A stretch of 40,106 nucleotides of DNA from Deltaproteobacteria bacterium (GTDB lineage: Bacteria > Bdellovibrionota_F > JAHFAK01), in NCBI GenBank assembly GCA_023250585.1, contig JAHFAK010000003.1, positions 4,748 through 44,853 of the forward strand, read 5' to 3'. Below the pieces are notes generated by a model. The model ran no database searches and was not told the DNA's origin. It saw nothing but the letters and a program-made list of their open reading frames with translations. A program made the position numbers and the translations under genes. Positions 8,520 through 40,058 of the stretch are shown piece by piece. Within the stretch, counting starts at the first letter, position 1, and each line of letters starts with the position of its first letter.

Positions 8520-8962
8520 GGAATGGCTCAGTTAATGGGAAAAATGAAGATGGATCCCGTGGTCAAGCCACGGGATGACAAACGGGAAATACTCTCAAAT
8601 TGTCATCCCGCGGCTTGACCGCGGGATCCAGTTCCATAGAGAACATGCCTACTTCCTAATAACCGAGAAGGTGTGAAAAAATCAAGAGAGAGCTCCATTT
8701 TCTGAAAAAGAGCGATAGGAAACTGAAATGTCCCATTCGACTGTCATTGCGAAAACCTGAAGGGTTTGAAGCAATCTCTTCTTACATATCCAAAGATTGC
8801 GGAGTTTATCCCGAATCTGCTTGAGATTGCTTCGTCGGACAAAAAAACGTGTCCTCCTCGCAATGACACGTGAGGGATCACACTCGAAATGACAACGTGC
8901 GGTCTTCTGTCATTTCGAACAAAGTGAGAAATATGATTCTTTCACACCTTCCGAGGCATTAC
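8520..8962. mobile_element. Composite MITE-like element M1 (modules A+B) with perfect 8-bp TSD TATTTATA
   Basis: Ends GGAATGGCTCAG / GTAATGCCTCGG (rc of right end); TATTTATA at 8512-8519 and 8963-8970; modules repeated elsewhere in window. Confidence 0.85.
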
Positions 8963-10865: not shown

Positions 10866-11016
10866 GAGAGGTTGGATAACAGCTCAGTAAATGGGAAAAA
10901 TGAAGATGGATCCCGTGGTCAAGCCACGGGATGACAAACGGGAAACACTCTCAAATTGTCATCCCGCGACTTGATCGCGGGATCCAGTTCCATAGAAAAA
11001 CTATCCCACCTCTCCT
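10864..11016. mobile_element. Degenerate module-A element M2 with arms pairing to the flank
   Basis: agctcagtaaatgggaaaaatgaagatggatcccgtggtc... matches M1/M4; right TIR is missing and replaced by tatcccacctctcct, near-complement of aggagaggttggata at 10864-10878. Confidence 0.75.
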
Positions 11017-18571: not shown

Positions 18572-18981
18572 GTACCAGCTCAGTAAATGGGAGTGATTAA
18601 GTAATTTCTCTATGGAACTGGATCCCGCGGTCAAGCCGCGGGATGACAATTCGAGAGTGTTTTCCGTTTGTCATCCCGTGGCTTGACCACGGGATCCATC
18701 TTCATTTTCCCATTAACTGAGAAGGTGTGAAAAAATCAAGGGAGAGCTCCATTTTCTGAAAAAGAGCGATAGGAAACTGAAATGTCCCATTCGACTGTCA
18801 TTGCGAAAACCTGAAGGGTTTGAAGCAATCTTTATTTGCTTGAGATTGCTTCGTCGGGCAAGAAAACGTGCCCTCCTCGCAATGACAGGTAAGAGACCAC
18901 CCTCGAAATGACAACGTGCGGTCTTCTGTCATTGCGAACGAAGTGAGAAATATGATTCTTTCACACCTTCTGAGCTATTAC
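18572..18981. mobile_element. Composite MITE-like element M3 (A inverted + B), TSD ATAAATAG/ATGAATAG
   Basis: Ends GTACCAGCTCAG / GTAATAGCTCAG; 7/8 TSD at 18564-18571 and 18982-18989; shares modules A and B with M1. Confidence 0.82.
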
Positions 18982-24060: not shown

Positions 24061-24217
24061 GTATAGCTCAGTTAATGGGAAAAATGAAGATGGATCCCGT
24101 GGTCAAGCCACGGGATGACAAACGGGAAACACTCTCAAATTGTCATCCCGCGGCTTGACCGCGGGATCCAGTTCCATAGAAAAATTACTTAATCACTCCC
24201 ATTAACTGAGGGATTAC
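24061..24217. mobile_element. MITE-like element M4 (module A only)
   Basis: Perfect inner 14-bp TIR ctcagttaatggga/tcccattaactgag; outer right end GTAATC; imperfect TSD tatgttgt/tctgttat (6/8). Confidence 0.75.
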
Positions 24218-32470: not shown

Positions 32471-34857
32471 CCTTGTTGTTCTAATGTTTGAATAATAATG
32501 GTTTGAACTTTCTTAATCTCTTCATCTTCAAGCGTTTTTGACTGCGATTGCAAAGTGACTTTAAATGAAGAACTTTTTTCATTTTCACCAAGCTGAGTAC
32601 CTTCGTAGTGAGCGATAAGCCTTACATTATCAATAAGTTCATTATTAACGGCTCTGATGATTTTTTCAATTTCTTGAACTTTTGTTGTTTTCGAACTCAC
32701 AATAGAAAATTCTAAATCGCTTGATGGGTATTTAGGAAGAGATATAAAGTTTTTTTGTGCCGTAGACAAATTTTTTAATTTTTCCATGTTAATCGTTGCA
32801 ATAAATGTCATGCCCCGTATATCAAACTGTTGCGCAAGTGATAATGAAAGTTCGCCAAAATATCCGAGTGTTGTTTCTCCACTCATAATGCATGCACTCT
32901 TTTTGCTATGTAACCACTTCAGAGGTTTTGATGCTTCTTCAATACTTACCGGTATTTTGAGGATATGAGCCAATGTTTCGATATCTTCTTTAAATGCATA
33001 AAAAAGCGAAGAAGAAGTTTTAGAATCAAAAGGATCCACAGTGCTGTAATTAACAATCATTGCAAGCTCAGTATGTTCATCATGATTCATCCCCTGTTTT
33101 GAGAAGACGTTACAGAGTTCAAAGATTTTTAATTCATGCATATGTTTTGCATTTTTAGGAATCATATCAAGTAAATTAGGAATGAGCGACGGCTTCAAAT
33201 ATTCTTCTTCATGCGAAAGTGGATTTTGAAGCTTAACCAATTCATCTTTGTTAATACTGCACACATCGATGTTTTTATTTTTGATAAATGAATGAGTAAG
33301 AATTTCAGAATAATGCAAAGTAGTTGCTAGAATTGTTTTGATTGTACGTGTAAGTGTTACACCGCGAGGATTTTGTGGAATATACATTGGAACGAGGGGA
33401 GCTTGTGGCTCAATCTTATTGTACCCATATATTCTACCAATTTCTTCGACAATGTCTTCTTTGATGCGAATATCTTTTGTTGCGCGAAAGCTTGGCACTG
33501 AAACCATGAGCGTATCTTTTGTTGTCTCGACTTTGAAATCGAGGCGTTCAAGGATTTCCTGTGCAGTTTCGAGTGAAAGAACACTACCTATTTTTTTTTG
33601 GACAAAATCGATTGGCACATGAATAGTGACATGCTTGTCTTGCACTCGTGATATATCAAATACGTTGCTTGCAATAGCGGAGTTAGTATCTATTGTTTGA
33701 AGTAATTCAGTAATACGCGCAATCGCTTGAGTTGTTAGATTTGGATCGAGTGCTTTTTCAAATCTCATTGATGATTCGGTTCGTAGCTCAAAATGAGTTG
33801 AAGTTTTACGGATTGATGTTGGATGAAAATGTGCGGATTCAATAATGATAGCTGTTGTAGCTTTGTCCACTTCTGTAATTTTTCCTCCCATCACACCGGC
33901 AATTGCGATTGGGTGAGTATTATGTGCAATGACTAAATTTGTTTTTGCAAGTGTTCGTTTCGTTCCATCAAGAGTTTCAATCGTTTCATTCTCTTTTGCA
34001 TCGCGAATCACAATCGTTGTATCTTTAATTTTATGATAATCAAATGCATGCGTTGGTTGGCCTAACTCAAGAAGGATATAATTAGTTACATCAACGACGG
34101 AATTAATGGCGCGAAACCCGAGCGTATTCAATCGAAATTTTAACCACAAAGGGGATGATGTAATATGGATATTATCAAGAATGAGTGCAGAATATCGCGG
34201 ACATGCTTCGGCATTTTCTACTCGGATAGTAAGCGGTAATTCATGGTGTGCTGAAGATTTTAATTGTTTAGAACTATCTAATTTTTTTAATTCTTTTCCA
34301 TAAATAGCTGCAATTTCTCGCGCAAATCCGTAATGCCCCCATAAATCAGGTCGATGCGTAATGCTTTTATTGTCAATCTCAAGAACGTAATCGGAAAAAT
34401 TTCCAAATGTATACAATTTTTTCCCCAGAGGTGTTTGGCTATCAAGAATCATAATTCCTTCAGTTTCTTCATCTAAAATGCCTAATTCTTTTCCCGAACA
34501 CAACATGCCGTTGCTTTCTAAACCACGAATTATTGTTTTTTTAATCTTGAAATTTTCGGGAAGAACAGCGCCATCGAGTGCAAGAAAAACTTTGTCGCCT
34601 TCACGATGATTTTTTGCTCCGCACACTATCTTAAGTGTTTCACTTCCCGTATCGACTGTGCAATAGGTGAGTTTATCAGCATTTGGATGTCGTTCGATTT
34701 TTTGAATCTGAGCGGTAATGACCTTATCATTGATATCGAGTTTATATACCCGAACATTCTCTACTTCAGCAACTTTCTCCGTAAGAATTTTTTTTAATTC
34801 CTCCGGACTCGCGGTAAAATCAACAAATTCTTTGAGCCAATTATATGAAAGTAGCAT
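32455..34857 (-). CDS. pheT: Phenylalanyl-tRNA synthetase beta subunit
   Basis: MLLSYNWLKEFVDF; tRNA-binding domain; MRFEKALDP; follows pheS. Confidence 0.95.
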   Translation of the reverse strand: MLLSYNWLKEFVDFTASPEELKKILTEKVAEVENVRVYKLDINDKVITAQIQKIERHPNADKLTYCTVDTGSETLKIVCGAKNHREGDKVFLALDGAVLPENFKIKKTIIRGLESNGMLCSGKELGILDEETEGIMILDSQTPLGKKLYTFGNFSDYVLEIDNKSITHRPDLWGHYGFAREIAAIYGKELKKLDSSKQLKSSAHHELPLTIRVENAEACPRYSALILDNIHITSSPLWLKFRLNTLGFRAINSVVDVTNYILLELGQPTHAFDYHKIKDTTIVIRDAKENETIETLDGTKRTLAKTNLVIAHNTHPIAIAGVMGGKITEVDKATTAIIIESAHFHPTSIRKTSTHFELRTESSMRFEKALDPNLTTQAIARITELLQTIDTNSAIASNVFDISRVQDKHVTIHVPIDFVQKKIGSVLSLETAQEILERLDFKVETTKDTLMVSVPSFRATKDIRIKEDIVEEIGRIYGYNKIEPQAPLVPMYIPQNPRGVTLTRTIKTILATTLHYSEILTHSFIKNKNIDVCSINKDELVKLQNPLSHEEEYLKPSLIPNLLDMIPKNAKHMHELKIFELCNVFSKQGMNHDEHTELAMIVNYSTVDPFDSKTSSSLFYAFKEDIETLAHILKIPVSIEEASKPLKWLHSKKSACIMSGETTLGYFGELSLSLAQQFDIRGMTFIATINMEKLKNLSTAQKNFISLPKYPSSDLEFSIVSSKTTKVQEIEKIIRAVNNELIDNVRLIAHYEGTQLGENEKSSSFKVTLQSQSKTLEDEEIKKVQTIIIQTLEQQGWKLR

Positions 34858-34879
34858 TCTTTCTCCTAAGACGTTTTTA

Positions 34880-34996
34880 GCGAGGGAGTGTACATGTTCT
34901 CTTTTTTATGCCTATCGACGTCGCTTCCATAATACTATTAAGAACAGGAAAGCGCGCTCGATAGGCATAAAAAAGAGAACATGTACACTCCCTCGC
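34880..34996. repeat. Long hairpin H1: perfect 39-bp stem around 39-nt core
   Basis: 34880-34918 is the exact reverse complement of 34958-34996; core cgtcgcttccataatactattaagaacaggaaagcgcgc. Confidence 0.95.
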
Positions 34997-35003
34997 ATGA
35001 AAC

Positions 35004-36023
35004 CTAAAATTGTGTTACAAATCGTAAATCTCCTCCGAGAAAATAACGGATATCATTTATGCGATGTTTGAGCATAACGAGTCGTTCGAGGCCCATGCCA
35101 AAAGCAAAACCGGAGAAAACTTCGGGGTCAATATTCACGTACTTGAGTACATCAGGATGCACAAGCCCACAACCCATAAGTTCAATAAATCCTCCATGCT
35201 TACAGATGGAGCAACCTTTTTTATCACAAAATATACAGCTAATTTCGAGTTCTAATCCTGGTTCAACAAAAGGAAAATATCCGGGTCTTAAACGAATTTC
35301 TATGTCTTTATGAAGAATCGCCGAAAGAAATGTTTTCATGGTATAAATAAGATGTGAGATCGATATATTTTTGTCGATCATGAGACCTTCGAGCTGATAA
35401 AAAGTATTTTCGTGAGAAGCATCCGTAGCTTCATAACGAAAAACACGGCCAGGAACGATGACTCGAAAAGGAGGTTTTAGACTTTGCATTGCCCTAATTT
35501 GTACTGGTGATGTATGCGTTCGCAACACATGGTTTTTATCAATCCAAAAAGTATCTTGCATATCGCGAGCGGGATGGTCTTGGGGAATATTTAATGCCGT
35601 AAAATTATATTCTTCTTTTTCGAGATACGGGCCTTCCCACACATGAAATCCCATATTTTTAAATATATCTTCAAGCTCATATTGAAGTGACGTGAGAGGA
35701 TTTAAATGCCCGGTAATTTTTGGTTCGAGAGTATAGGCCGAAATATCAATCCATTCTTTTTCTTGTTCTGCGAATTTTTTATTTTGTAATTTTTTGCTCT
35801 GTTCTTCAATTAAATTGGCGATATAGATTTTTATTTCATTTCCTAATTTACCGACAATAGGCTTATCTTCTGGTTTTAAGTCTTTTACATTGCGTAAAAT
35901 ACTGGTAAGAATTCCATTTCTACCAAGATACTTAATTTCAATTTCACGAAGTGTTGTCTCGCTTTGAGATTGAGTGATTTCAGTGTGAGCTTCTTCTTTT
36001 ATAGTGCGTAATTTTTCTTCCAT
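35004..36023 (-). CDS. pheS: Phenylalanyl-tRNA synthetase alpha subunit
   Basis: HPARDMQDTFWI, RTHTSPVQIRAMQ, GRVFRYEATDASHENTFYQLEG, GFAFGMGLERLVMLKH. Confidence 0.96.
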   Translation of the reverse strand: MEEKLRTIKEEAHTEITQSQSETTLREIEIKYLGRNGILTSILRNVKDLKPEDKPIVGKLGNEIKIYIANLIEEQSKKLQNKKFAEQEKEWIDISAYTLEPKITGHLNPLTSLQYELEDIFKNMGFHVWEGPYLEKEEYNFTALNIPQDHPARDMQDTFWIDKNHVLRTHTSPVQIRAMQSLKPPFRVIVPGRVFRYEATDASHENTFYQLEGLMIDKNISISHLIYTMKTFLSAILHKDIEIRLRPGYFPFVEPGLELEISCIFCDKKGCSICKHGGFIELMGCGLVHPDVLKYVNIDPEVFSGFAFGMGLERLVMLKHRINDIRYFLGGDLRFVTQF

Positions 36024-37485: not shown

Positions 37486-38175
37486 TTACAACAAAAACGG
37501 TACTAATTTCCTGTAATCTTCATACGCTGGATTCTTCGATAATTCGCGTTCTTCAATGATACATACTCGAATATACGTAAAAATAAGAATTGGCGCAAAG
37601 AAGAGGGTAATGAGTGTTGGCCAACCAAATAACCATCCCAGAACAACAAGAATGAAGCCGGTATATTGCGGATGTCTTGAATAGTTATAAATTCCTTGAG
37701 AGACCAGTGTATGTGTTGTGAGATTTTTATAAAGAGTGATCCATCCAATAATTACGAGTGTAGTACCAATAAGCATAAGTATACTTCCATAAATCATAGG
37801 AATGGTCATCCCAATTGCAACCCCAAGAAAATTAAACACGATGGGAGTAGAAGGTAAAGCTATATTTTCTGTGCTCATGAATCGTCCGACAAAATAAACC
37901 GTTAAAGGAATTCCATACATTTCAATAAAGAGTGAAATAAAAAAGGCACCCACTAATGAAAATTCCGTCCAGTTTATTTTTCGTCTAAAAAAAAGAGGAA
38001 TGAGGAATGAACAAAAGAGAACAATATTGATAATGACCATTGGCCACTCGTTTTGAATCACTGAGTGCAAAAGATTTCCTGAAAGATGAAATGTGAAGTG
38101 ATGATAAAATGAATCGAAGAATACAAACGGAATTACAAAAAATATACACGCAAGTAAACGGAATATCCACTTCAT
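37486..38175 (-). CDS. Isoprenylcysteine methyltransferase/PEMT-like membrane protein
   Basis: SQGIYNYSRHPQYTGFILVVLGWL...EERELSKNPAYEDYRKLVP. Confidence 0.82.
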   Translation of the reverse strand: MKWIFRLLACIFFVIPFVFFDSFYHHFTFHLSGNLLHSVIQNEWPMVIINIVLFCSFLIPLFFRRKINWTEFSLVGAFFISLFIEMYGIPLTVYFVGRFMSTENIALPSTPIVFNFLGVAIGMTIPMIYGSILMLIGTTLVIIGWITLYKNLTTHTLVSQGIYNYSRHPQYTGFILVVLGWLFGWPTLITLFFAPILIFTYIRVCIIEERELSKNPAYEDYRKLVPFLL

Positions 38176-38178
38176 GGT

Positions 38179-38338
38179 GTAATGCCTCAGTTATAAGGGT
38201 GTGCGTATGTTCTCACAAAGAATTTTTATCGACGTCGCTTCCATAAAACTATTAAGAACGGGTAAGCGCGCTCGATAAAAATTCTTTGTGAGAACATACG
38301 CACACCCTAACTTCCCCATTAACTCACTGAACGGTACC
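38179..38338. mobile_element. MITE-like element M6 with perfect TSD TTCATGGT, containing hairpin H2
   Basis: ttcatggt at 38171-38178 and 38339-38346; ends GTAATGCCTCAG / GGTACCGTTCAG; inner perfect 37-bp stem 38196-38232/38272-38308. Confidence 0.9.
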
Positions 38339-38339
38339 T

Positions 38340-40058
38340 TCATGGTATTTCTTTTAAAACCGTTAAGAACTCATCGGGCTCAACAGCTCCACTAATAGTT
38401 TTGTTTTCAAGAAATGCACCAGAAGAATCAAAAAAAAGATAGGTGGGTACTCCGCGGAGTGCATATTTTTCAGCGAGCTCTTGATTGACACTATTATCAT
38501 CAAAGGTAAGATCGACTTTAATTTTAGTAAATCGCTCAAGTTCAGTTACTACATGGTTATCCTGAAAAGTTGTTTCTTCCATAATTTTACAGGGAAAACA
38601 CCACTCAGCATAAAAATCAACAATCATTGGTTTTTTTTCTTTCTGAGATTCTTCGATAATTCCTGGCTGATAGCGGATCCATGTTACTTTTTGTGGGATA
38701 CCATGCCATCTATATGAGAAGAAGCAAAAAACAATAAGCACCAGCGCAATAATTCTTTTGATAAATTTAAAAAATTCAAGATGATTGCCTGTTCTATCAA
38801 TAAACCCCAAGTAAATCGCACTTATAAAAAGCAGCAAGAGGAGTGCCTTTATGTAAAGTGTTCCTCCGAGAATAGGCTGAATAATATAGAGAGCCATTGC
38901 TATAAGAATAATTCCAAGGAATTTTTTTACCCATATCAGCCATTCGCCAGATTTCGGTAGGGATTTTATTGATCCTGAGAATAGTGCAAGTACTAAATAG
39001 GGCAGGGCTAAGCCTAAAGAAAATACAAAGAAAATAATAAATCCTAAAGTGCGTGATCCTAAATGAGATACAAATGCAAGAAGTCCTAGAATAAAGGGCC
39101 CTACGCAGGGTGCGGCAACGAGGCCTAATGTTGCACCCATGAAAAATGAACCGACGATTCCTTTTTTGCCTTCTTTTGGTAAAAGTTTAATAGGAATTTT
39201 TATTTCAAACAAGCCAAACATCGAAAGTGCGAGAAGAACAATGAAAAATGCAATAGCGATCAGAACAATCTTTTGTTGTAAAAGCATGCCAAACATATTT
39301 CCCGTCACTGCCGCAAAAAAGCCCAAGAAAGAATACGTGAGACAAATACCTAATGCATACGCAGTTCCTAAAAAAAATAGTCGAGAAAAACGTGACTCTG
39401 CCTGTTTAACAAAAAATCCTATTGTTATAGGAACCATAGGGTAAACACACGGGGTAAGATTAAGAAGTAAGCCAGCAATAAATAATAATAAAAATGCGAG
39501 AAAGTAATTTCCACCTAAAAAGAGATGTTGAAATTTTTGATTGTATTCATTTCCTTGCATTCCTGGTTCAGGAGCTTCTGTAATTGTTATCTGAGAGCTT
39601 AGATCAATGTGTTTCGTTTGTGGCTTTAAACATGAAATATCATTACATGCTTGATAATTAATAGTTAGTATACAGGATGGGTTTGTGACTTCTTTAACAA
39701 ATCCTTCTGCAGTTATAGTTACTATTCCAGTATACAGTGATAATTCTTTTGAAAATGTTTTTAATTTTTTAGTAATAGGCTCAGGATATTTTATATTTTT
39801 TATATCGATTTGTGGGCATTCTTCAAAGCTGATCGTTGTAGGAATGAGAAAATTAGTGTTTGGTTCATGAGAATTAATGTGCCAAGGAGAATCAATGGTC
39901 AGTGTAGTTTTTATTGAGACATTATTTGCTTCATGAGTCAGTTCAGAATTAATATGCACAGGATTTTCTTGCGCAAAACTAAGGGAAAAAAGAATGAAGT
40001 TAAAAATAATTAGTATACCTGTCGTTATATGTAAAAGACGAGTTATAAATTGCTGCAT
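38340..40058 (-). CDS. dsbD: Thiol:disulfide interchange protein DsbD
   Basis: LNLTPCVYPMVPITIGFF, LVAAPCVGPFILGL, C-terminal thioredoxin YAEWCFPCKIMEE; signal peptide. Confidence 0.95.
   Translation of the reverse strand: MQQFITRLLHITTGILIIFNFILFSLSFAQENPVHINSELTHEANNVSIKTTLTIDSPWHINSHEPNTNFLIPTTISFEECPQIDIKNIKYPEPITKKLKTFSKELSLYTGIVTITAEGFVKEVTNPSCILTINYQACNDISCLKPQTKHIDLSSQITITEAPEPGMQGNEYNQKFQHLFLGGNYFLAFLLLFIAGLLLNLTPCVYPMVPITIGFFVKQAESRFSRLFFLGTAYALGICLTYSFLGFFAAVTGNMFGMLLQQKIVLIAIAFFIVLLALSMFGLFEIKIPIKLLPKEGKKGIVGSFFMGATLGLVAAPCVGPFILGLLAFVSHLGSRTLGFIIFFVFSLGLALPYLVLALFSGSIKSLPKSGEWLIWVKKFLGIILIAMALYIIQPILGGTLYIKALLLLLFISAIYLGFIDRTGNHLEFFKFIKRIIALVLIVFCFFSYRWHGIPQKVTWIRYQPGIIEESQKEKKPMIVDFYAEWCFPCKIMEETTFQDNHVVTELERFTKIKVDLTFDDNSVNQELAEKYALRGVPTYLFFDSSGAFLENKTISGAVEPDEFLTVLKEIP

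Follow-up and report, generated by a model that had tools for sequence, protein, structure and literature searches.

On the minus strand of the DNA analyzed here, a stretch of 40,106 nucleotides (hereafter, the window), dsbD, the gene for a thiol:disulfide interchange protein of 572 amino acids (38340..40058), lies upstream of a gene for a membrane methyltransferase of the ICMT/PEMT type (37486..38175; 229 amino acids). The DsbD protein matches the Pfam domains DsbD_TM (1e-45) and Thioredoxin_2, and because the latter match reaches residue 568 of 572, its C-terminus is intact; the downstream product matches both PEMT (2.5e-8) and ICMT (2.9e-8). The stop codon of dsbD (TGA, 38342-38340) and the start codon of the methyltransferase gene (ATG, 38175-38173) are now 164 nt apart, and the space between them is occupied by a MITE-like inserted element of 159 bp (38179..38337, assigned to neither strand), with the ends GTAATGCC...ACGGTAC, the limits of which were drawn from alignments of its copies in the same genome and from their boundaries. 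Within the element, a left arm (38196..38232) and a right arm (38272..38308), both given on the plus strand, form a perfect stem of 37 bp, embedded in a pair of 45-nt arms that match at 93%, and this structure folds much better than shuffled sequences (z = -10.4).

The element is flanked by two copies of a direct repeat, CTTCATGGT on the plus strand and ACCATGAAG on the minus strand. The copy on the methyltransferase side (38170..38178) contains the start codon of that gene, and the copy on the dsbD side (38338..38346) contains the stop codon of dsbD together with an ATG that overlaps it. A preliminary description of this junction had given the gene ends as GAA ATA CCA TGA for dsbD and ATG AAG TGG for the next gene on the minus strand, and had reported the 37-bp hairpin, all of which we found as described; it had also reported a flanking repeat of 8 bp, TTCATGGT, which is indeed perfect and correctly placed (38171-38178 and 38339-38346), but the true identity runs one base further, to 9 bp. 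The repeat is either a 9-bp unit or an 8-bp unit extended by one chance base, with the right end of the element reading GGTAC. In the window, CTTCATGGT occurs only at these two places on either strand, and two occurrences anywhere are seen in 4 of 100 shuffles. When the element and one repeat are removed, the sequence becomes ...ATACCATGAAGTGG, that is, an ATGA overlap between stop and start, and the reconstructed empty site, AAAGAAATACCATGAAGTGG, is identical in the 8-bp and the 9-bp register.

The source genome (2.24 Mb; a draft in 164 contigs, 97% complete) contains at least 34 full-length copies of the same element. The typical copy is 157 bp long, begins with GTAA and ends with TTAC, and has terminal inverted repeats of about 15-25 bp, its ends, which are inverted in orientation, reading GTAACAGCTCAGTTA or GTAATCCCTCAGTTA. 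Of some 30 further copies, most are bordered by their own, differing direct repeats of 8 bp, in a few cases 9 bp, which are mostly identical at 7 or 8 of the 8 positions. The element has three of the features by which MITEs are recognized: it is shorter than 600 bp, present in many copies and bounded by terminal inverted repeats; its target duplication is of fixed length, 8 bp (some 9) across the roughly 30 copies; and it carries no transposase gene of its own, only chance reading frames, with no Pfam match for the 50-amino-acid frame of the focal copy. Because other copies carry their own, different repeats beside the same ends, the repeat at the dsbD/methyltransferase junction is identified as a target-site duplication. 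In other genomes that we searched, DNA of the element was absent except for a single 24-bp match.

In two copies (L017:1489-1645, at C87:3086, and L002:1491-1647, on C61), the frame of the upstream gene terminates inside the element, so that the element supplies the stop codon. In the window, a second long hairpin (34873-35003) lies in the gap that separates the stop codon of pheS, at 35004, from the start of pheT, at 34857, and has in common with the focal element its 53-bp core, which is found at many places in the genome, although the outer arms differ and there are no GTAA ends. A different hairpin interior, beginning ATGAAGATGGATCCCG, is present in the window at 8544-8637, 10900-10993, 18612-18705 and 24084-24177, as well as at L074:415-570 and L079:1370-1525; in the latter two loci, it is borne by the same GTAA...CTCAGTTA ends, which the end sequence of the window copy at 24067-24210 also matches. 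It seems, then, that one set of ends carries two unrelated hairpin interiors.

A second copy of the focal element is situated between the genes for RNase PH (rph) and RdgB/Ham1 (rdgB), both identified by Pfam matches (C50:4122, locus L011). Here, the duplication is TTCATAGA, or TCTATGAA on the minus strand, and removal of the element again restores an ATGA, in which the end of rph and the beginning of rdgB overlap; the N-terminus of RdgB, MKKILFATENRGK, begins at the ATG of the restored overlap. Among 19 distant genomes in which rph and rdgB are adjacent, 9 have a 4-bp overlap at this junction, and on that account an overlapping ancestor of the rph/rdgB pair is plausible. As an independent event, this insertion provides the strongest support for the reading that the element entered a stop/start overlap. 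The preliminary description had proposed that a MITE lies between dsbD and the methyltransferase gene and that it was inserted in an ATGA overlap with a duplication that regenerated both the stop and the start codon. Both proposals have held up: the element recurs with its own target duplications, and the anatomy of the junction, the approximately 30 copies with duplications of their own and the rph/rdgB case all point the same way. That the element was inserted in the ATGA overlap of dsbD and the methyltransferase gene, an event with a counterpart at rph/rdgB in the same genome, is thus well supported.

Could the two genes never have overlapped, with the element being an old spacer and the 9-bp repeats a coincidence? 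A chance match of this length is rare but possible, and the empty site itself was not observed. However, the repeat abuts the exact ends that are set by the other copies, whose repeats have the same length, and the pattern is repeated at rph/rdgB, where other genomes do show the overlap, so that we consider coincidence very improbable. An assembly artefact, whereby copies of the element joined two unrelated contigs, would be conceivable in a draft of this kind, with its 164 contigs and several copies located 100-130 bp from contig ends; yet a false join is not expected to yield matching duplications on both sides, nor to unite two genes of the same strand with an ATGA empty site, and we regard this explanation as extremely unlikely. 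Protein searches of 59 genomes and of genome contigs recovered dsbD next to this methyltransferase gene in none of them; the genomes searched included no close relative, the nearest belonging to the same class, a scan of viral contigs with the joined-site pattern was empty, and so was a scan with the core pattern. Because no genome searched pairs the two genes, the empty site at this junction is deduced from its anatomy and from the rph/rdgB case.

Whether the element is found at overlaps and stop codons more often than by chance was assessed against 380 kb sampled from the genome, with simple ORF calls at three ORF thresholds and with all positions at which an 8-bp duplication leaves every called gene whole counted as allowed. 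The sample contains 29 ATGA overlaps (35 with GTGA and TTGA included) in 233 co-directional gene pairs; overlaps make up about 0.3-0.6% of the allowed positions, and positions spanning a stop codon, 3-5%. Among the 26-27 insertions that spare genes, 0.09-0.16 would be expected in ATGA overlaps, and 2 are found there (p 0.004-0.011). A further 8 have a stop codon within the duplication, where 0.9-1.3 are expected (p 1e-6 to 3e-5), and no insertion has a start codon there by itself. These eight copies, 6-9 times the expectation, are on C42 (L012), C22 (L015), C6 (L007), C7 (L009), C81 (L013), C58 (L010), C19 (L026) and C56 (L030); the copy in L012 directly precedes a recA-like gene.

Judging from these counts, the excess at overlaps and stops may be due to target preference, to the removal by selection of insertions that damage genes, or to the two together. 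That the element prefers stop codons or DNA resembling ATGA as targets, instead of surviving there by selection, is compatible with the presence of a stop codon within the duplication in 10 of 27 gene-sparing insertions, where about 1.2 are expected, and with the fact that NNNATGAA is present, in the same register, at both ATGA insertions and at one other copy. The 31 duplications, however, are rich in A+T (70%) but otherwise show no strong base preference, and the counts per position are weak. Moreover, the removal of gene-harming insertions by selection would, on its own, drive the survivors toward gene ends; in that case, however, insertions into free intergenic DNA should be equally frequent. 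On balance, target preference in place of selection appears somewhat unlikely.

The consequences for translation are less straightforward than the anatomy. The preliminary description held that the insertion turned a coupled junction into two separate units, and this part of it is not borne out in that form. The regenerated copy on the dsbD side retains the old ATG, which continues to overlap with the stop codon of dsbD. From this ATG, a frame of 50 codons runs through the element on the minus strand (38191..38343) to a TAA located 15 nt short of the methyltransferase start codon, with which it is in frame. In addition, the end of the element that faces the methyltransferase gene reads TAACTGAGGCATTAC-ACC-ATG and contains a GAGG (38185..38188, minus strand) 9 nt before the ATG, which is the commonest spacing of GAGG among the genes of the sampled genome; the reconstructed empty site has no GAGG-like motif. 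This GAGG is Shine-Dalgarno-like; a search of the genome for 16S rRNA, from which the anti-Shine-Dalgarno would be read, found none.

A conserved leader peptide was considered for the 50-codon frame and rejected: long frames are common by chance in copies of the element, with a median longest open run of 44.5 codons per copy, and in the rph/rdgB case, the frame from the regenerated ATG is only Met-Lys-stop. The frame is probably accidental, but could nonetheless carry ribosomes. The same end of the element faces rdgB, and in the same register as it faces the methyltransferase gene; however, the GAGG is predicted to be unpaired in the focal mRNA (0.95-0.98) and paired in the rph/rdgB mRNA. For this reason, the takeover of methyltransferase initiation by the GAGG-bearing end is put forward here as a hypothesis, and a general rule by which the element supplies a Shine-Dalgarno sequence is weakened.

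Ancestral coupling of dsbD and the methyltransferase gene is itself something that we infer from the overlap, and with both the 50-codon frame and the GAGG in place, the sequence does not separate its loss from its retention or replacement. A break of the coupling that left each of the two genes to be expressed on its own, with functional effects of the hairpin such as processing by RNase III, would fit the 164 nt that now part stop from start and the perfect 37-bp stem between them, and it has a precedent in the Correia elements, where RNase III cleaves MITE-bearing transcripts (PMC10969869). Set against this are the old ATG on the dsbD stop, the 50-codon frame that would bring ribosomes within 15 nt of the methyltransferase ATG, and the lack of any terminator-like site on the minus, coding strand of the junction. 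We therefore view uncoupling as possible but doubtful.

The arms of the hairpin present another facet of the element. In an alignment (A2) of the focal arms (38196-38308) with those of 28 other copies, 103 cells are changed on both sides and 98.2% of all cells pair; double changes affect 18 of the 37 stem pairs, and one-sided changes to a G-T wobble amount to zero across the 29 copies. Had selection acted on the RNA, G-U intermediates should remain among the copies, which makes arm-to-arm copying in DNA the likelier cause; the pattern suggests correction of one arm by the other in DNA rather than selection on the RNA. In two copies (L010:1040-1196 and the L017 copy at C87:3086), the usually asymmetric core, CGACGTCGCTT/AAGCGCGCTCG, has been made symmetric, in opposite directions, as expected under templated correction.

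Among known elements, IS66 offers the closest parallel to the ends and the duplication. The terminal inverted repeat of IS66 begins with GTAAGCG and is accompanied by an 8-bp direct repeat (PMC11946415); the element described here likewise begins with GTAA and duplicates 8 bp, but its ends read GTAACAG, GTAATCC or GTAATGC, not the GTAAGCG consensus. The IS66 DDE transposase and TnpB (PF03050, PF05717) have no match in the genome, at its 97% completeness; searches of it with PF03050, PF05717 and PF01609 yielded no autonomous parent with matching ends, and the two DDE_Tnp_1 loci that it does contain lack the ends of the element. By its ends and duplication length, then, the element works like an IS66-type MITE and can be called IS66-like, as a putative rather than a settled member of that family.

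In terms of genomic setting, Chunjie (2008), as cited in PMC10969869, is a multi-copy MITE that lies in an operon without disrupting its genes, and in these respects, as far as that citation goes, it resembles our element, differing in size (178-235 bp). The Correia elements of Neisseria, likened here by description, are also short inverted-repeat elements that place a hairpin within a polycistronic mRNA; RNase III cleavage has been demonstrated for them and is a possibility for the focal element. QMITE2 of Coxiella burnetii and MITEAba12 of Acinetobacter insert at the 3' ends of genes, where they modify a stop codon or provide one (PMC5896051, PMC6382973), thereby changing the protein, in contrast to the focal element, the duplication of which preserves both proteins. 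Our literature search, which covered open-licence papers, yielded no published example of a stop/start overlap being duplicated, and the focal insertion is a new and instructive example of an already known type of element.

The scenario that we favor, and consider highly probable as a whole, is that a non-autonomous MITE-like element of about 157 bp (GTAA...TTAC, with an 8-9-bp duplication) inserted such that the duplicated target covered the ATGA shared by dsbD and the methyltransferase gene. As can be read directly from the DNA, each gene received a complete copy of the target, which left stop and start intact and the proteins unchanged. Only about five positions in and around the overlap would spare both genes, and an insertion at one of them would survive as a near-neutral event. 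Translation of the methyltransferase would then, most likely, initiate from the element's own end, possibly assisted by ribosomes that reinitiate at the old ATG, translate the 50 codons across the element and terminate 15 nt ahead of the gene. The broader habit of the element in this genome is that of lying across stop codons. A bolder proposal is that the family as such colonizes stops and overlaps, with the duplication saving the genes, the GAGG end taking over initiation and the arms being kept identical by DNA copying; we think it distinctly unlikely in this full form, but if it were true, the family would turn coupled junctions into element-driven ones.

How overlapping genes gain a spacer is ordinarily a puzzle, since an insertion at an overlap will in most cases break a gene. 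The insertion described here would represent a one-step, damage-free route by which overlapping, presumably coupled bacterial genes acquire one: tiny mobile elements can separate overlapping genes without breaking either. With two independent cases and a general excess at stop codons, the route is more than an isolated oddity and can be tested as a way in which operons evolve.
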